A stretch of 36,876 nt of DNA from an uncultured Geobacter sp. (lineage in GTDB: Bacteria; Desulfobacterota; Desulfuromonadia; Geobacterales; Geobacteraceae). The stretch's first letter is position 1. Every line of letters starts with the position of its first letter. A program made the translations under genes and the position numbers. Below are positions 27,688-36,517 of the stretch, piece after piece. Where the stretch lies: NCBI GenBank assembly GCA_903915655.1, contig CAIWTU010000018.1, forward strand, positions 1-36,876. Reading direction: 5' to 3'. The notes under the pieces were generated by a model, which saw only the letters and a program-made list of their open reading frames with translations, searched no databases and was not told the origin of the DNA.

Positions 27688-28260
27688 CTATAGGGTTCCG
27701 GACGGCAACAACTTGAGGAGCGCCGGTATCATATCGGGGAAGATGATTACTGCAGAAAAAACAAGGGTAACCGTCAGGAGAATGATCAGAATGATGACGT
27801 TCCTTTTCGTGAGATATTGCCTTATGAACTTTTCGATTCTGCCATATATGTGAGCTTTACATTTCGGGCATATTTTCAGCTCTTTGCTGATAAGACTGTA
27901 ACACGATGGACAGGTAACGGTCTTAACCTCCGGCACAACCACTTTAACATCAGGCTTCCTCAATTTTTTTACATCGGTCTTATTGCCAACCTGTTTCTCG
28001 TATTCTCTTGCGATAGAATTGTATGTGACCGACCCCTTGATGGTTTCGTATAACTCAGTGGTGACAGCCAGGCTTTTTTTTGCCTCTTCACGCAGATCCA
28101 GGTCGGGAGAAAAGAGGTTTTTCTTGTATTCCTTCGTCAGACAATTATAGGTGAATTCAATCTGCTCCGGTGAATCGGAGAGTGAGACCCCCATCGCCTG
28201 ATAGCAAAGAATAACATCCTTCAATTTATCGTCCCGCTCTTCAGTCTCGGAATTACTCAT
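27688..28260 (-). CDS. J-like domain, zinc-ribbon, C-terminal membrane helix protein
   Basis: An uncharacterised 190-residue protein. Residues about 12-80 are helical and resemble a degenerate DnaJ J domain (LCYQAMGVSLSDSPEQIEFTY, then LTKEYKK). The HPD motif needed to stimulate Hsp70 is absent; KNLFSPD occupies that loop. Four cysteines (CPSC 117-120, CPKC 131-134) form a zinc ribbon. A single hydrophobic helix at about 154-175 should place the C-terminus across the inner membrane. ATG 28260 has AGGAGG ten bases upstream, and a good promoter lies at 28364-28391. It could be a membrane-tethered adaptor. Confidence 0.8.
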   Translation of the reverse strand: MSNSETEERDDKLKDVILCYQAMGVSLSDSPEQIEFTYNCLTKEYKKNLFSPDLDLREEAKKSLAVTTELYETIKGSVTYNSIAREYEKQVGNKTDVKKLRKPDVKVVVPEVKTVTCPSCYSLISKELKICPKCKAHIYGRIEKFIRQYLTKRNVIILIILLTVTLVFSAVIIFPDMIPALLKLLPSGTL

Positions 28261-28940: not shown

Positions 28941-29465
28941 ATGTTACAAAATTTGCCGGGATATTGTGAAAATGATGCAGGGAGAGGGTTGTCTGAGCGT
29001 TTTTTTATCGGACTTCGCAATAACTGCAAGCCGGGAAAGGGGTGCGATTACCTGAAGAACCAGCAAGGATTCACGCTCATTGAGATTCTGGTTGCAATGA
29101 CCCTGATGGTGATCGGTCTCTTCGCCGTGATCGGCATGCAGACATTCGCGCTTCAAGCCAATTCGATTGCAAATCAGCTTTCGGTAGCAACTTCACTGGC
29201 GGGCGAAGCGCTCGAAGATATCTCTTCCAGCGCCTGGACATCAAACGGCGCGGCCATTACCAACGGTACCACTACATTGCCGTTCGACGCCTCTACCAAC
29301 TACGGAACCTATACCCATCAAAGCGCCGGAGTCTACACAACGACCTGTACTCCGACCCTGAATTCCCCTATAACAGGGATAGTACAGCTCGATATCACGG
29401 CAACCTATACCTTTAAAGGCAACACCAAAAGTGTCACCATGACCGGTTACAAGAGGGTGTTATGA
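28941..29465 (+). CDS. pilV: PilV-like type IV pilus minor pilin
   Basis: A prepilin of the type IV pilus machinery; such minor pilins prime pilus assembly in the inner membrane. The class III cleavage site is NQQG/FTLIEI, with Glu at mature position 5, then a hydrophobic helix (LVAMTLMVIGLFAVIGMQ) and EALEDI. From ATG 28941 (AAGGG six bases upstream) the leader would be 43 residues, unusually long. A shorter six-residue leader would arise from a CTG at 29052, which has AAAGGGG about nine bases upstream. It is first of the pilus operon, and its stop overlaps the pilW start (ATGA). Confidence 0.88.
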   Translation: MLQNLPGYCENDAGRGLSERFFIGLRNNCKPGKGCDYLKNQQGFTLIEILVAMTLMVIGLFAVIGMQTFALQANSIANQLSVATSLAGEALEDISSSAWTSNGAAITNGTTTLPFDASTNYGTYTHQSAGVYTTTCTPTLNSPITGIVQLDITATYTFKGNTKSVTMTGYKRVL

Positions 29466-30343
29466 GCAGAAAATTATCGGGGAATGGCGGGTTTACGCTG
29501 GTTGAACTCCTGGTGGTTGCGGGGATATTGGGACTCGTTATCGGAGCCATTTATTCCCTCTACCTGACTCACATGAGAGCCGCCTATACCCAGGACGAGG
29601 TGGTCGAGGTTCAGCAGAATCTGCGGATTGCCATGGGCGCGATCACCAGGGATCTCAAGATGGCAGGCGCCCTCCTCCCTTACGGAACTGACCCCGTATT
29701 TGGCACCAACTCCTCGGCAACCATAAACACCGGCGCCCCCACCGGCGCCATAGCCAGAATAAACGTGACCCAGGAGAGCACAGCCACCACCACTTTCAGC
29801 ACCACGGTGGAGTCGCCCGATGCCCTGGACAATTTCATAGTGGGGGACGCCGTGCGGATAATAAGGCCGTTCGACGGAGCCCAGCCCTTCTATACCGCAA
29901 CCCTGGGCAACTACACCACCATGCGGGTAAGTAACGTGGACAAGGCAAATTCAAACATCTCTCTGAAAAGGATTAACTCTGCGACTTTCAACGCCGGAGT
30001 AACCATAAAAAACGGCGATATCATAGCAAAAAAGAACGCTTACCCACAGTCAAGATACGATATAATAAGGTATTCTCTCGGTAGTTGCCCTGTCAATTCC
30101 GGGCTTAACGAAAGGTGCCTCTTTCGCGCCGTAAACGGCGGGACAGGGGACGTTGTCGCCTCGAATCTTTCCGGCATACTCTTTTCCTTCTTTACCGAGG
30201 TGAGCTACGGAACAACCGCGATAACGGCCGTCCAGGTAACCTTGGACGGTATAACGAGAAAGAAAGTCTCCTCCACCGATACACAATTCAAGAGCAGACA
30301 GCTTACCTCGATCGTAAAACTGAGAAACAGGAGATATTACTGA
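29462..30343 (+). CDS. pilW: PilW-like minor pilin
   Basis: A type IV prepilin of the PilW family, thought to join the tip or priming complex. The 293 residues have a short leader ending GNGG, cleaved before FTLVELLVV with Glu 5. The family sequence after the helix, QQNLRIAMGAITRDLKMAG, is clear near residue 55. The C-terminal half is beta-rich with two cysteines near 212 and 222. Its ATG overlaps the pilV stop by two bases. It ends one base before the pilX start. Confidence 0.92.
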   Translation: MSRKLSGNGGFTLVELLVVAGILGLVIGAIYSLYLTHMRAAYTQDEVVEVQQNLRIAMGAITRDLKMAGALLPYGTDPVFGTNSSATINTGAPTGAIARINVTQESTATTTFSTTVESPDALDNFIVGDAVRIIRPFDGAQPFYTATLGNYTTMRVSNVDKANSNISLKRINSATFNAGVTIKNGDIIAKKNAYPQSRYDIIRYSLGSCPVNSGLNERCLFRAVNGGTGDVVASNLSGILFSFFTEVSYGTTAITAVQVTLDGITRKKVSSTDTQFKSRQLTSIVKLRNRRYY

Positions 30344-30344
30344 G

Positions 30345-30938
30345 ATGGGAGCGAACAGTCAGATTGAATCCGGCAACAGGCTTGTCACGACCGGCAATGA
30401 GCGGGGTGTGGCGCTGATCATCGTACTGGCGATGCTCCTCCTTCTCAGCATCCTCGGGGCCTCCATGCTCGCCACCTCAACCTCGGAACTGAAGATCGCC
30501 GGCAACTACAGGAACAGCGAGGAGACCTTCTATACCGCTGATGCCGCAATGGAACTCGCCCACACCTACTCCGGCATCTATACGAATCTCGCTCTCGACT
30601 CCCCTTTCTGGCCCGTGAGCGGCAGTGGGCAGAATATGGAAGCAGACTTTGGTTCCCATGGGGCGAACACCAACAATCAGAAAAATCCCGATTACGCGAA
30701 CTATAACCGCGTATCCTTTACCGGCGCGAACGGCAACCCGAATACAGCTGACGTAAGGGTGGAACTGACCGGCAGCGGCAACCCTCCGGCAGGGTACGGC
30801 ATACAGGAAGACTCGGGGATAAGCCCCGGTTCAACCGGCTACAAGGCCAACTACTTTGCTGTTTCGGTAATAGCCTATGGCCCGAACGATACCACCTCAA
30901 AGCTGGAATCACAGCTCGCCAGAATTGTCCAGCAATGA
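30345..30938 (+). CDS. pilX: PilX-like minor pilin
   Basis: A PilX-type prepilin (PilX_N-like N-terminus). The 197 residues have the leader site GNERG before VALIIVLAMLLLLSILGASML. Position 5 of the mature protein is Ile, not Glu. Loss of Glu 5 is typical of the PilX/GspK class that sits at the pilus or pseudopilus tip. The following SELKIAGNYRNSEETFYTADAAMELA is the family signature. It starts one base after the pilW stop; a ribosome binding site AGGAG lies about 11 bases upstream. Confidence 0.92.
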   Translation: MGANSQIESGNRLVTTGNERGVALIIVLAMLLLLSILGASMLATSTSELKIAGNYRNSEETFYTADAAMELAHTYSGIYTNLALDSPFWPVSGSGQNMEADFGSHGANTNNQKNPDYANYNRVSFTGANGNPNTADVRVELTGSGNPPAGYGIQEDSGISPGSTGYKANYFAVSVIAYGPNDTTSKLESQLARIVQQ

Positions 30939-30968
30939 ATCTGGTCTCTATAGCTGAAAGGAGTCATT

Positions 30969-31325
30969 ATGAAAAATCGTCTCTCTTCTTTATTGCTTTT
31001 TATCTCCCTGCTCGTCTCCGCAACAACTATCACCGGGGTCTCGGCCGCAAAGGATCCCTATAATCCCGGGCAGACATATTCGGGGAAATACACGACCGCT
31101 GCCCTCTACTACAGGAGTCCTCGCAACCCCAACTGGTATCGCGGTCTCAGCGGCACATACCCGGATGGGGTACGCTGTCGGGACGCCCTCAACCATTTCA
31201 TGAACGACGGCAAATGGCAAGGCCATCTGAATACCGACGGTTCATGCGCCTCCCCGGCCGAGCCGTCGGAATGGGCTGTGGGAAACAGGCTGAACTACGA
31301 TGCTTCTTCCAGGGTCGCCCGATGA
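30969..31325 (+). CDS. Small secreted protein of unknown function between pilX and pilY1
   Basis: I do not recognise this protein. It has 118 residues: a signal peptide (KNRLSSLLLFISLLVSATT, cleavage near residue 26) and a mature part of about 92 residues. The mature part is rich in Tyr, Trp, Asn and Gly, with NPNWYRGLSGTYPDGVRC near residue 53 and two cysteines (70 and 93) that could form a disulfide. AAAGGAG is five bases before ATG 30969. Its place between pilX and pilY1 suggests a periplasmic or exported partner of the pilus tip; that is inference. Confidence 0.8.
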   Translation: MKNRLSSLLLFISLLVSATTITGVSAAKDPYNPGQTYSGKYTTAALYYRSPRNPNWYRGLSGTYPDGVRCRDALNHFMNDGKWQGHLNTDGSCASPAEPSEWAVGNRLNYDASSRVAR

Positions 31326-31392: not shown

Positions 31393-34300
31393 ATGAAAAA
31401 GCTCGTTCTGCTTGTAATATCACTGATGATTTCAGCGACGGCGGCCTCGCCCGTTTTCGCCGACTTCGACAAATATCCCGGCGATTCCTCCATCTACGGC
31501 GTCGAGTCGACCACAAAACCGAATGTCCTGATAGTCATCGACAATTCAGGGAGTATGGCCGATACGGTAATAGCCAACGATTATCTCCCCTCAACGACCT
31601 ATGCCACTTCAAGCTCATGCACCAGTCAACCCGGCGTTGGCAAGACCTGTGTCAGCGACCAGATCTATCGGAAGACCGGAACCGCCACCTATACGCTCAT
31701 ATACGGATCTACAACAGCGTCATCCCGGGTCTGGGTCTGTGACAGAACCAACAGGGACGGGACTTGCGGAAGCGGGCATTGGGATACCACTAACGTGACC
31801 ACCTATTATCCTCTCCATCTTTCACAGGTGCCCGCCACCTGCGGCACCCTGAGCCCTCTCTCCACGATGACAAACGAGGGGATCTATATCGGCTACCAGT
31901 TGTCCCCCCAGGCGAGTTCCACCGCTACCGCCACCTGCACGACCGGCGGCACCACAGGCTACACCTACGTGACCGGGAACTATGTCAACTATACTAAATC
32001 TCCTCAATACGTCTACAAACAGAAGATCGCGATCGCCAGGGATGTAGTCAAAAACCTGATAAAAACCACGGAAGGGGTCAATTTCGGCCTGATGACCTAT
32101 TTTTACACCCCTAGCTGCGATTACACATCGTATAACTCCTGCGCCCAGGGGGGGACCTTCATATCGAAATCGGTCGCCTTCGGGAGCAGTACGGGAACAT
32201 ATGTATCCACCATCAAGGAGATGGACACGATTTTCCCCACCGGAAACTCCGGCAATGCCGCCTGCATCGACACATCCAAATGCACCAACCGTGACGCCCT
32301 TATGACGACCGTTGATACCCTGACGAGCGCGGGCGCCACCCCTCTGGCGGAAACCATGCTCGAAGCCGGCCGCTACTTCAGCGGGGGGGCGCCGGCGTTC
32401 GGGGCTACCGTAGGGGTAAGCAGCGGCAAATACACCACTCCCGTTGTATCGACCTGCCAGAAGAATTACGTTATCTTCGTGACAGACGGCATGTCCACCG
32501 CGGATGACAGCGCCGTTCTTAGAACCATCGGCACGAGTGGAGACACCGACGGAGACGGGAACGAGCCTGGCGACCTCTCCCACTCCCTCGATGACGTGGC
32601 GAAATATCTGAATACCAGCGCCCAGAACATCGTATCCTATTACATCGGCTTCGACCTCTCCGGCGCCAATCAGGATGCGATAGACCTGCTGAACAGGGCC
32701 TCCGACGAGAACCACGGCAAGGGTGACTATTATTCGGCCAACAGCCAGATCGGCCTCTCCGACACACTCAGCACCATCATGTCCGAGATTATTTCGGTGA
32801 ACAGCTCTTATGTGGCGCCGGTTGTACCGGTCAGTCCACAGAACAGGTCCTACGGATCAAGCAGAGTCTACATGGGCTTTTTCCGCCCCTACGGCAACAG
32901 CTACTGGGCCGGCAATCTGAAAAAATACGCCCTCGATTACAACAACTTCGTTATTGACCTCAACAACAATTACGCTACATGGGTAGACGAGGACAACAAC
33001 GGCGTTGACGACAGGGACGGAACGACCCTTGAAACAGACGCATCCAACGGTAGCTTCAAGAGCACGGCGAAATCTTTCTGGAGCACCAGCGTCGACGGCG
33101 GGACCGTCAAACTGGGGGGAGCCGGAGAGGTATTGAAAGGTTTGACCGGATCTCGGCATCTCTATACCTATACCGGCACGAACAGCAACCTGACAGATTC
33201 CAGCAATCTGCTCAGCAGTGCAAATTCAGCCATAACCGCAACCACCCTGGGCGTTGCCGACTCCACGGCAAAGGATAATCTGATCAAATTTCTCCAGGGC
33301 TATGACGTATATCTCGAAAGCTCCAATTCAAGCGCAACCTCGGCAAGAAGCTGGGTCATGGGGGATATACTCCACTCCCGGCCGCTTGTCCTCAACTACA
33401 ATAAATATACCTTCAACACAACCAGCGAGGCCGACAGCAGCCAGAACAAGACGATGATTTTCGTCGGCGGCAACGACGGAATGCTCCATGCGTTTAACGA
33501 TTATAACGGGAGCGAGGCCTGGGCCTTCACCCCCCCCGAATCACTTGATAAACTCAAGGATATAACCGGAATCTATCACCCTATTTTCACCGATTCCTCC
33601 GTCTCTGCCTATGTGTACGATGCCAACAACAACGGCACCATAGAAACCGGTGACAAAGTGATCCTGATCTTCGGCGAACGGAGAGGTGGCGGTACATTCA
33701 GCGCCGCAACGACCGGCCACTATTACGCCTTTGATGTCTCCGACCCGGCATCCCCCCAGTATCTATGGAAGGTTGACAACACCACCTCCGGTTTCGCCCA
33801 GATGGGGGAGAGCTGGAGCGAGCCAAAATTTGTAAAAATGAAGATAGGGAGCGCAAGCAAGATAGTCGCGTTTTTCGGGGGGGGGTATGACAACCCGAAC
33901 GAAGATGGGAGATATGGCGCCACACAGGGCTTTACCGGAGCTGGTTCCGTCGTACTCAGCGAAACAGGTTCGGGCGCTGTGAGCAGCTCCAACACCGTCG
34001 CAGGCAACACACCCCTGAACCCGAGAGGGCGTGGCCTATACGCCGTGGAACTGGCAACCCTCAACAGCAGCGGAGTCCCCGCGGTTGCAAGCAGCGTTAC
34101 CAAGATCTGGAGCGCCACCAATGAAACAGGGACCCCCACCTCACCAAACAAATATTACTCGAACATGACATTTTCCTTCCCTGCCGAGGTTACGGCCATC
34201 GATTCCGACAACAACGGATATACGAACAGGATCTACGCCGTCGACACCGGCGCCAACCTCTGGCGCTTTGACCTGGACGATCCCTCCCCGGCCAACTGGG

Positions 34301-35061
34301 CCGCCAAGATGATCTTCAGCGCCAACCCTGGCTCCGCCAGCTCTTCGGATGTCGGAAGAAAGGTCTTTTACAAACCGTCTGTGGTTACGGAAAGGGGGTA
34401 CCGGATGATTTACTTCGGCACTGGTGACAGGGAACACCCCCTCAACACCAACGTCGTTGACAGGATATACGCATTCAAAGACCCGGACATCAATACCTAC
34501 AGCACGGCAAAAACGGAAAGCAACCTTGTAGACTTGACCCTGGACACTCTTCAGAACACCACGACAACCGGCACTGAATTGACCAACAGTATCAACCTCG
34601 TCCTGACGCAACTGAACAGCAGTTCCAACTTTGGCTGGTATATCAAACTGAACGAGAATTCCGGGGAAAAGGCGCTGTCGTCGCCGACGGTTTTCAGCAA
34701 GGTCCTCTACCTGACCACCTACTCGCCAAGCACGGCCACAAACTCAACCTCCTGCAGCGGGAATCTCGGCACGGCGCGCCTTTATGCCCTGGACTACAAA
34801 ACCGGCGAGGCGGTATTGAATTACAACGAGGCCAATGACGGCTCACTCCCCGTCAACATAAGGGCCAGAGACTCCGCCGGCAAGACCTTGACACGTAGCG
34901 ACCGGGTGACAACGCTCGGATCCGGAATCCCGTCCGGGGTAGTTGTACTCATATCCGCAGGGGGGCAGACAAAGATCATGACCGGGGTCGGGGGAAAGAT
35001 CGCCACAGCCAAGTCAATATCAGGCGGGACAATTATTCCTCTTTACTGGAGGCAAAAATAA
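31393..35061 (+). CDS. pilY1: PilY1-type pilus tip adhesin/assembly protein
   Basis: PilY1 proteins promote pilus assembly and surface adhesion or sensing. From ATG 31393 (AGGAG seven bases upstream) the product has 1222 residues with a signal peptide ending near residue 23. A von Willebrand A domain follows, its MIDAS seen as DNSGSM (50-55). The C-terminal PilY1 propeller starts near 685 (FVGGNDGMLHAF) and includes FFGGGYDN. Asp/Asn-rich EF-hand-like loops occur at about 384, 532, 743 and 937, and may bind calcium. Runs of G7 (two), C8 and G9 lie inside the gene. Its stop overlaps the next start (TAATG). Confidence 0.95.
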   Translation: MKKLVLLVISLMISATAASPVFADFDKYPGDSSIYGVESTTKPNVLIVIDNSGSMADTVIANDYLPSTTYATSSSCTSQPGVGKTCVSDQIYRKTGTATYTLIYGSTTASSRVWVCDRTNRDGTCGSGHWDTTNVTTYYPLHLSQVPATCGTLSPLSTMTNEGIYIGYQLSPQASSTATATCTTGGTTGYTYVTGNYVNYTKSPQYVYKQKIAIARDVVKNLIKTTEGVNFGLMTYFYTPSCDYTSYNSCAQGGTFISKSVAFGSSTGTYVSTIKEMDTIFPTGNSGNAACIDTSKCTNRDALMTTVDTLTSAGATPLAETMLEAGRYFSGGAPAFGATVGVSSGKYTTPVVSTCQKNYVIFVTDGMSTADDSAVLRTIGTSGDTDGDGNEPGDLSHSLDDVAKYLNTSAQNIVSYYIGFDLSGANQDAIDLLNRASDENHGKGDYYSANSQIGLSDTLSTIMSEIISVNSSYVAPVVPVSPQNRSYGSSRVYMGFFRPYGNSYWAGNLKKYALDYNNFVIDLNNNYATWVDEDNNGVDDRDGTTLETDASNGSFKSTAKSFWSTSVDGGTVKLGGAGEVLKGLTGSRHLYTYTGTNSNLTDSSNLLSSANSAITATTLGVADSTAKDNLIKFLQGYDVYLESSNSSATSARSWVMGDILHSRPLVLNYNKYTFNTTSEADSSQNKTMIFVGGNDGMLHAFNDYNGSEAWAFTPPESLDKLKDITGIYHPIFTDSSVSAYVYDANNNGTIETGDKVILIFGERRGGGTFSAATTGHYYAFDVSDPASPQYLWKVDNTTSGFAQMGESWSEPKFVKMKIGSASKIVAFFGGGYDNPNEDGRYGATQGFTGAGSVVLSETGSGAVSSSNTVAGNTPLNPRGRGLYAVELATLNSSGVPAVASSVTKIWSATNETGTPTSPNKYYSNMTFSFPAEVTAIDSDNNGYTNRIYAVDTGANLWRFDLDDPSPANWAAKMIFSANPGSASSSDVGRKVFYKPSVVTERGYRMIYFGTGDREHPLNTNVVDRIYAFKDPDINTYSTAKTESNLVDLTLDTLQNTTTTGTELTNSINLVLTQLNSSSNFGWYIKLNENSGEKALSSPTVFSKVLYLTTYSPSTATNSTSCSGNLGTARLYALDYKTGEAVLNYNEANDGSLPVNIRARDSAGKTLTRSDRVTTLGSGIPSGVVVLISAGGQTKIMTGVGGKIATAKSISGGTIIPLYWRQK
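33877..33885 (+). repeat. G9 homopolymer inside pilY1
   Basis: Nine consecutive G encode three Gly codons in the conserved FFGGGYDN segment of the PilY1 propeller. Gain or loss of one base would shift the frame of the last about 390 codons. Other runs in the same gene are G7 at 32148-32154, G7 at 32383-32389 and C8 at 33530-33537. Confidence 0.85.
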
Positions 35062-35996
35062 TGGGTACGGCTTTCCGGGCGACTCCTTCATTTCGGCTGC
35101 ATTCCATGGCATTATGCCTGGCTCTATGCGCAGTCACACTCTCTTCTTGCGACAGCGCGAAAAAGGAGTCGCCCGGTCCGCCCAAACCTGTTGCTCAACT
35201 CCATTCCGGGAAACTGGGTGTAAACATATTGCCCGTTGCCCCCTCCTCTTCTCATGATCTCCGTGCACTCTATTCCGGCGACAGGGGGGTCAGTTACTCC
35301 TGGGAGAAGAACGGACTGCTCATAGCAAGGGAAACCACTCCAAGGCTCTCCCGGCAGAATTTTGCCAAAAACGACAAGATCGCAGTTACAGTCCGTTCCG
35401 GCAATGAGACCGGGAGCGCCACTGTTGTAATCGGAAATGCACCTCCGCAAGTCATATCGATTGCTTTAGAACCCGCCGTTGTTTATACCGGGGCCGATAT
35501 CATCGCAAAACCGACTGCTTCAGACCCGGATGGCGACGATATCCAGTATGATTATCACTGGTCGATAAACGGTCAGGAGGTTACCGGTAGTAGTCCGGTT
35601 TTGAAAGGAGACCTCCTTAAAAAGGGGGACAAGGTTACACTTCTGGTCACTCCAACCGACGGCGAGCAGAGCGGGACCCCTTTCAAGGTTGATGTTGCGA
35701 CCGTTTCAAACTCCCCCCCGTTTTTCGTATCGACCCCACCGGAAAATTTCAGTGGGATGCAATACAGTTATCGCGCATCGGCAAAAGACCCGGATGGCGA
35801 TAAGATCGCCTACTCTCTGGCTACAGCCCCCAAAGGGATGACCATCGACCCGGTCTCGGGGATGATTACCTGGCTGATTTCTAAAGGGGATGCCGGTTCC
35901 CACCCGATTGAGGTTGTGGCAACTGATCCGGAAGGTGCAAAAATTTCACAGAAATTTACCCTGAATATCAGACTGAACAACGGGACAAGCCAATGA
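35061..35996 (+). CDS. Lipoprotein with Ig/cadherin-like repeats
   Basis: A probable outer-membrane or periplasmic lipoprotein of 311 residues. The lipobox is LSSC with the lipidated Cys at residue 30 after a hydrophobic segment. Three beta-rich repeats follow. Those near 127-215 and 217-305 start after NAPPQV and NSPPFFVSTP and carry DPDGDDI or DPDGDKI, the Ca-type motifs of cadherin-like and putative Ig domains (GMTIDPVSGMITW). The ATG overlaps the pilY1 stop as TAATG; GGAGG is eight bases upstream. Coupling suggests it partners PilY1, perhaps as a pilus-tip or secretin-associated protein. A C7 run lies at 35713-35719. Confidence 0.85.
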   Translation: MGTAFRATPSFRLHSMALCLALCAVTLSSCDSAKKESPGPPKPVAQLHSGKLGVNILPVAPSSSHDLRALYSGDRGVSYSWEKNGLLIARETTPRLSRQNFAKNDKIAVTVRSGNETGSATVVIGNAPPQVISIALEPAVVYTGADIIAKPTASDPDGDDIQYDYHWSINGQEVTGSSPVLKGDLLKKGDKVTLLVTPTDGEQSGTPFKVDVATVSNSPPFFVSTPPENFSGMQYSYRASAKDPDGDKIAYSLATAPKGMTIDPVSGMITWLISKGDAGSHPIEVVATDPEGAKISQKFTLNIRLNNGTSQ

Positions 35997-36517
35997 ATAT
36001 CGACAGGTCAATGATAGAGGGCCATCTTGCCCGTGAGAAGGGTTTCACCTTGATTGAGCTGATGATCGTAATCGGCATCTCTGCCATTATGACGGCAATT
36101 TCCATCCCTACCTTCGTTGATTGGCGAAAGAACCAGAATTTCCGCAAAACGGCGAACGAGATTACCTCTTTTCTGAGAGAAACACGGAGCAAGGCCATTT
36201 CGAAAGGGGTTCAGCATGAGATTCTCTTTAACCAGGTCAGCAATTGTTACCAGTTGCAGGTTTACAACATCGCCACCAGCAGCTTTGACACCCCCTCCCA
36301 GACACTCTGCCCTCCGGCAGATGTTTCGATCAAAAGCAGTTCGGATGGGACATCTACGGCAGTTCTGACAGTTATATTCAATTCCGACGGCACAACTACC
36401 ATATCAGGTCCGGATGGTCTGACGAGCGCGAATGTGTCAGTAAATGACCTGGCAACACAAAAATATCTGGTAACTGTCTTGCGGACAGGGAGAATATCGT
36501 CGGTAAGAAAGTACTGA
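35993..36517 (+). CDS. FimT/GspH-like minor pilin
   Basis: A type II/IV pseudopilin of the FimT/GspH group. The 174 residues have the leader site REKG before FTLIELMIVIGISAIM, with Glu 5 kept. The helix is followed by FRKTANEITSFLRETRSKAISKG, typical of this group, and a beta-rich C-terminal domain with two cysteines. The ATG overlaps the preceding stop (ATGA), so it is part of the same operon. It probably completes the priming complex with the PilV, PilW and PilX products. No major pilin or pilus motor gene lies in the window. Confidence 0.9.
   Translation: MNIDRSMIEGHLAREKGFTLIELMIVIGISAIMTAISIPTFVDWRKNQNFRKTANEITSFLRETRSKAISKGVQHEILFNQVSNCYQLQVYNIATSSFDTPSQTLCPPADVSIKSSSDGTSTAVLTVIFNSDGTTTISGPDGLTSANVSVNDLATQKYLVTVLRTGRISSVRKY

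Follow-up and report, generated by a model that had tools for sequence, protein, structure and literature searches.

By sequence comparison, the 118-residue secreted protein encoded between pilX and pilY1 in the DNA of an uncultured Geobacter sp. (X118) is a stand-alone paralogue of a domain of about 80 residues that lies inside the VWA domain of PilY1, right after the MIDAS motif DxSxS. The stretch of DNA analysed (36,876 nucleotides, referred to as the window) carries the operon in the order pilV, pilW, pilX, X118, pilY1, Ig-domain protein and GspH-type minor pilin. The following features were assigned:

28941..29465, + strand: pilV (N_methyl; the listed start is probably too far upstream)
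29462..30343, + strand: pilW (N_methyl; named from its place and from the operons of homologues)
30345..30938, + strand: pilX (PilX_N, E 1e-9)
30957..30963, + strand: X118 ribosome binding site AAAGGAG (by eye), five bases 5' of the ATG
30969..31325, + strand: X118 gene, 118-aa secreted protein (ATG at 30969, stop ending at 31325)
30969..31046, + strand: X118 signal peptide, 26 residues (by eye; model helix at residues 3-21)
31059..31295, + strand: conserved domain of X118 (Y31-N109), a homologue of the insert in the PilY1 VWA
31176-31178, + strand: X118 C70
31245-31247, + strand: X118 C93
31260-31262, + strand: X118 E98
31393..35061, + strand: pilY1, 1222 aa from the likely ATG (AGGAG upstream of ATG 31393)
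31537..31557, + strand: end of the PilY1 VWA strand and MIDAS motif I-D-N-S-G-S-M (D50-x-S52-x-S54)
31582..31992, + strand: PilY1 insert that follows immediately on the MIDAS motif and is the cis paralogue of X118, ending in GNYVNY
35061..35996, + strand: Ig-domain (He_PIG) protein with a lipobox-like LSSC (by eye), 3' neighbour of pilY1
35993..36517, + strand: GspH/FimU-type minor pilin

The start listed for the PilY1 ORF at 31300 is probably spurious, and the ATG at 31393 is the likelier one.

The X118 signal peptide (MKNRLSSLLLFISLLVSATTITGVSA) looks like type I, with a cut between VSA and AK (by eye). The mature part of 92 residues contains 3 Trp, 8 Tyr and 8 Asn (counted by eye), and the protein has exactly two cysteines, C70 and C93, 23 residues apart. 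The initial annotation had described a signal-peptide protein with two cysteines, rich in Trp, Tyr and Asn, and preceded by a good ribosome binding site of its own; the sequence together with 27 homologues confirmed that this ORF is real, and the AAAGGAG found agrees with the statement on the ribosome binding site. The protein had also been called unknown, which holds for Pfam and NCBIfam (no match at E up to 1) but not for its kinship, as it is a detached PilY1 domain. The C-terminal beta-propeller PF05567, a trait of the PilY1/PilC family, is absent from its 118 residues by Pfam, as is the N_methyl prepilin motif (PF07963), which PilV, PilW and the GspH-type neighbour do match. The sequence contains neither CxxC nor CxxCH, the latter being the haem motif of TfcP-type cytochrome c.

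Homologues were collected in two steps. A single-sequence search of 97 genomes, including the window's own, returned eight other strong matches to small frames (E 2.5e-15 or better) and one match at 4e-9 inside a 1147-residue frame of G001, the sole congener listed; for 19 weaker places (E 0.001 to 0.1) the profile gave no confirmation at E 0.001. The next best place in X118's own genome was at E 0.16, and all three further places there (E 0.16-0.33) were regarded as chance. From the nine small proteins a profile (A1) was built and applied to the order, the class and a phylum sample, where it matched in 18 of 141, 40 of 277 and 25 of 395 genomes, respectively, six of the last being already among the class genomes. 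The 45 matches in the class consisted of 28 small frames and 17 frames of 357-1380 residues; no new free copy was found with A1 in the phylum sample. The family thus comprises X118 and 27 homologues (22-47% identity to X118), that is, 28 genes in 28 of the 277 class genomes, with 11 invariant columns besides Met1. In four class matches (G113, G115, G186 and G155) the profile match crosses a stop that precedes the start chosen by the script; all 28 proteins used are free of inner stops and have signal-peptide-like starts. Two short frames of G617 were rejected as free copies, because they contain a MIDAS-like motif and represent PilY1 starts truncated by masked bases or the contig end (the G617 PilY1 was left out of all counts), and a 366-aa frame of L148 that matched the free-copy profile was rejected as a PilY1-like start at a contig end.

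Among the named strains, the gene is present in Geobacter argillaceus ATCC BAA-1139, Geomonas limicola Red745, Pelotalea chapellei DSM 13688 and Trichlorobacter thiogenes ATCC BAA-34, which are cultured, non-pathogenic soil and sediment bacteria, so that the question of its role is testable. A pattern scan of named-species genomes gave 13 relatives among 56 pattern matches and no additional members, with an exact sequence pattern that misses many known ones. Phage records gave no match, and none of the five pattern matches in viral contigs was a relative. In a minimal comparison beyond the phylum, the PilY1 insert of Aeromonas caviae gave a weak match (E 4e-4), and no insert was seen in the PilY1 of Cupriavidus metallidurans.

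In the 37 fetched regions and at the window end, each of the 28 genes stands immediately between pilX and pilY1 and in the same orientation, and none of the matches in the 277 class genomes is an X118 copy outside this position. The neighbour search proposed in the initial annotation therefore placed the homologues within pilus operons and not away from them. No unrelated family emerged either, the only related one found being the PilY1 domain.

The kinship with PilY1 is visible through profiles and through the PilY1 of G001, not through direct BLAST against the PilY1 of the window, which aligned signal peptides and a few scraps of 4-66 residues and not the domain. The match in G001 falls within PilY1, just after the MIDAS motif, and X118 aligned with this protein at a pairwise E of 4e-12. 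An HMM of the first nine free copies found PilY1 frames unaided (E 2.4e-15 to 6.9e-4), and hhalign of A1 against eight PilY1 segments encoded beside small proteins gave an end-to-end alignment (E 1.6e-7, probability 94%). When the 28 free domains were compared profile to profile with the 20 PilY1 inserts of X118 operons and with 35 of the 37 other inserts, E values of 2e-11 and 2.1e-20 were obtained (80 columns); in the controls, the best of 20 column shuffles reached 0.099 for the first set and 0.043 for the second, and reversal of the profile gave 0.025. Run over the 3947 ORFs of the fetched regions (E <1e-3), the free-domain profile retrieved nothing other than 28 short frames, 39 frames of PilY1 and a single fragment resembling PilY1. 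The insert is present in most of the sampled PilY1s, and no Pfam or NCBIfam model matched it.

Free copies and inserts have Y31, Y37, Y47, C70, G81, C93, G105, N106 and N109 in common (X118 numbering), the last three forming part of a shared GNxxN motif. C70 is found in 28/28 free copies, in 20/20 inserts accompanied by X118 and in 33/37 other inserts; over free and cis domains together, C93 and G81 are each present in 85/85 and N109 in 84/85. The order of strands and helices is likewise shared. The two kinds of domain differ in that X118 is secreted separately, always has W83 and E/D98, and does without the extra cysteine pair of the inserts that accompany it. Neither W83 nor E/D98 ever varies among the free copies, but both do among the cis domains: an acidic residue at position 98 occurs in 28/28 free copies, in 2/20 cis domains with X118 and in 5/37 others, although cis domains with an acidic residue anywhere from -9 to -5 of GNxxN are not rare (4/20 and 13/37). 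X118 is encoded by a separate 118-aa gene outside any VWA domain and is accordingly classed as a stand-alone paralogue and not as a VWA insert. These residues also bear on the idea of X118 as a duplicate lacking its own function, which would suit a gene found in only 28 of 277 class genomes and missing from most relatives. Across the 28 divergent sequences, eleven columns besides Met1 never vary, the frames are open with signal-peptide-like starts, and two residues are fixed in the free copies but variable in the cis domains, all of which makes such an idle duplicate very improbable.

An AlphaFold2 model of X118 (28 sequences) had a mean pLDDT of 88; in blocks of ten over residues 31-110 the values were 93-98, except for 87 in the block 91-100. 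The model consists of strands 46-50 and 53-58, helix 71-79, strands 82-85 and 100-104, and helix 105-116. In the model of the window's PilY1 head (27 sequences, mean 79), the stretch from the MIDAS motif to VWA helix 1 contains strands 63-67 and 108-113, helix 128-135, strands 137-140 and 163-167, and helix 168-174, with extra strands between these elements, mostly in a long loop. X118 and the PilY1 insert are thus predicted to have their strands and helices in the same order. The insert is placed in the head model between the DxSxS loop and helix 1, a side that forms the metal-site face of VWA domains. Fold comparison of the X118 model gave a best Foldseek E of 0.29 and, in a second comparison, a best Z of 2.3 (RyR/FKBP chains), both too weak for an assignment; the missing match does not imply a new fold. 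The single PDB-sequence match of the profile, GCP60 (E 0.023), was taken as chance. The window's PilY1 matched only designed propeller proteins among PDB sequences. The first rows of the fold comparison of its head held VWA domains (4fx5, 1fe8, 1shu and GBS104, 3tvy) and others, all at E >0.02 and headed by a viral capsid, an outcome compatible with VWA.

A domain tree was computed from 85 sequences on 88 columns, a length at which many forks are weak; 27 of 84 PilY1 entries, from which the script did not cut the domain cleanly, were left out. The 28 free copies formed one clade (support 99/93), which indicates one origin. X118 probably arose in an ancestor through duplication of the PilY1 insert domain and was then passed on with the operon. 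A tree of PilY1 bodies was built from 80 sequences and 941 columns (three short or masked rows dropped; L101 was too short). One Geobacter-type group (n = 17) contains 16 PilY1s with X118 and, at its base, that of G001 without it. A second group (n = 13) contains 11 with X118 and two tandem copies, one located inside an X118 operon and the other in G183, where the upstream part is cut by the contig end. The 17/11 split of the free-copy clade matches these two groups, which adjoin 38 PilY1s without X118. Two to three changes account for this pattern. As to tandem arrangements, L105, L106, L110 and L112 each have two pilV-W-X-Y1 operons in a row, with X118 in the first only and a degenerate MIDAS in the second, and L115 and L136 have a pair of pilY1 genes in immediate succession.

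Over 24 operons the distances between X118 proteins correlated with those of PilX, PilY1 and PilW at Spearman 0.61, 0.60 and 0.55, and PilX and PilY1 correlated with each other at 0.71, above all X118 values. X118 tracks the three proteins about equally, so co-inheritance does not single out PilY1, and a mirror-tree link of X118 to PilY1 was rejected as not specific. X118 might instead bind PilX or other minor pilins, or be a free secreted adhesin or matrix protein, its place reflecting nothing but its origin by duplication. Its distances would agree with this, as would the position of the gene directly after pilX and an aromatic-rich sequence that may suit ligand binding. For the gene of a free adhesin, relocation would be expected, whereas all 28 copies are in the operon, none was found elsewhere in the 277 class genomes and none was new in the 395 genomes sampled from the phylum; this reading is considered improbable.

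The DxSxS motif is intact in 27/27 PilY1s encoded with X118 and in 12/47 without it. The count covers 74 PilY1s with a readable motif (two tandem copies and four unreadable rows were left out). The PilY1s without X118 are a sample and not a complete census: 40 regions were hand-picked from the 94 class genomes with a PilY1 match, eight (L104 and L118-L124; three from outside the class) were added on account of a profile match in the insert, and some belong to second operons of X118 genomes. Of the 12 intact motifs without X118, two (L150, L153) are in the main PilY1 group and ten in groups more distant from it. Fisher's test of the association gave p 6e-11 without regard to descent; the independent pairs number only two, too few for significance. 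An extra cysteine pair ahead of the first strand of the insert was found in 19/20 PilY1s with X118 and in 4/37 without, two of these four being the tandem copies mentioned above. Seven PilY1s of the X118 type stand outside the 20; six have the pair and the frame of the seventh is cut short. The links of the MIDAS motif and of the cysteine pair to X118 rest on about two independent changes.

Two single cases are of special value. In G186 (one draft genome, 81% complete) the PilY1 beside X118 has no insert, and in the alignment with the related PilY1 of G185 its flanks continue in frame without other damage. G001, the window's congener, has no X118; its MIDAS motif reads DNNST and its third-loop motif ITNG, and its insert gives a much better match to the X118 profile than those of its close relatives. 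Within the group of 38 PilY1s without X118 (e.g., L127-L155), DxSxS is lost in 33 of the 35 with a readable motif; metal-dependent adhesion may hence not be general in PilY1. One PilY1 in L148 (323-3358, - strand) lacks both the insert and any recognisable MIDAS motif, and X118 is missing beside it. The PilY1 starts of L107, L108, L109, L111, L113 and L114 contain, after the MIDAS motif and ahead of the insert domain, Asp-rich DxDGDGxxD repeats, which we take to resemble thrombospondin type 3 calcium repeats.

With all 28 genes between pilX and pilY1 and a PilY1 domain as the sole related family, a partner of the pilus tip complex, as suggested in the initial annotation, is the leading reading, its presence at the tip and its binding to PilY1 being presumed. 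More specifically, X118 is judged somewhat more probably than otherwise to act in trans as a subunit or regulator of the VWA/MIDAS head of PilY1, as a second, detachable copy of the lobe. It would be exported like PilY1 and dock on the VWA head near the MIDAS, at the site of the cis domain; the tip head would then be a two-protein assembly, in which adhesion or surface sensing could be set by whether X118 is bound. The acidic residue 98 is a speculative candidate for a contact to the metal site or to another part of PilY1.

This role is favoured in view of reports on other pilus tips. Sections on the Gram-positive tip adhesins RrgA and GBS104 describe arms that are inserted around the VWA MIDAS, cradle over it and shape the binding site (PMC7893114). 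The PilY1 head resembles them in arrangement, as a pilus-tip VWA domain with inserted parts near its MIDAS; the arms described are in cis, whereas X118 is free. In Pseudomonas aeruginosa the VWA region of PilY1 (residues 48-368) is reported to adhere and to sense surfaces (PMC8806160). Cys152 and Cys147 matter there for signalling and not for twitching, and both are missing in PAO1-type strains (PMC8806160). The part modelled on a plain VWA starts at 201 according to an extract of PMC9210963, so the two cysteines, after 48 and before 201, fall in the stretch that corresponds to the insert, by position alone. They are five apart and strain-variable, unlike C70 and C93 of X118, which are 23 apart and invariant.

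The main rival explanation is that X118 serves as a periplasmic helper for the folding, disulfides or metal loading of PilY1, outside the pilus. The precedent is TfcP of Myxococcus xanthus, for which excerpts of PMC8833165 report a type I signal peptide, a periplasmic location, stabilisation of PilY1.1 and absence from the pilus. Like X118, TfcP is an extra small secreted protein of a minor pilin/pilY1 cluster, and its case indicates that such a protein may be a transient periplasmic helper; the extra cysteine pair in the inserts of PilY1s with X118 (19/20) would be in keeping with this. TfcP is, however, a cytochrome c, and X118 lacks CxxCH and is kin to PilY1 itself. X118 further resembles a structural part of the supposed client and not a chaperone or an oxidoreductase, has no CxxC, and is retained in G186 though the PilY1 there has no insert to fold. 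We regard the helper role as somewhat unlikely. Rather unlikely, too, is a bolder form of the trans-acting lobe, in which the type IVa pilus tip would be a split adhesin: X118 would complete or gate the MIDAS head with its acidic residue on the metal site, contact or force would remove or reseat it and so switch adhesion or signalling, and in G186 the free copy would have replaced the cis lobe.

X118 suggests that the pilus tip may have an extra, hitherto unrecognised helper part. The insert around the metal site goes unnamed in the cited passages on PilY1, and a 2026 survey of PilY1 architectures states that, beyond vWFA and DUF4114, no further conserved N-terminal domain is on record (PMC13190605). 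Among the matches listed from the open-access literature on PilY1, minor pilins and Desulfuromonadales (most subscription papers and preprints were outside this scope), none described X118 or a free copy of this insert. A natural free copy, together with G186 (cis copy gone) and G001 (free copy gone), offers a direct handle on the role of the lobe.

Further genes were noted in the same genome and around the operon. A second, longer PilY1-like gene (1564 aa; G000:C156 / L179, 4789-9480, - strand) lies beside other pilins; it carries a different insert, which extends to KGNYMNWLTASKFDIEK and gave no match with the X118 domain profile. Upstream of the pilus operon, the window encodes at 27688-28260 (- strand) a protein of 190 aa with a J-domain-like start and a membrane helix (both by eye) and zinc-ribbon-like cysteines, for which Pfam gave weak zinc-ribbon matches only; a homologue was present near the minor pilin operon in 5/37 fetched regions (L092, L096, L097, L101 and L102). 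A homologue of the lipoprotein-like Ig/He_PIG protein follows pilY1 in 11/37 fetched regions.
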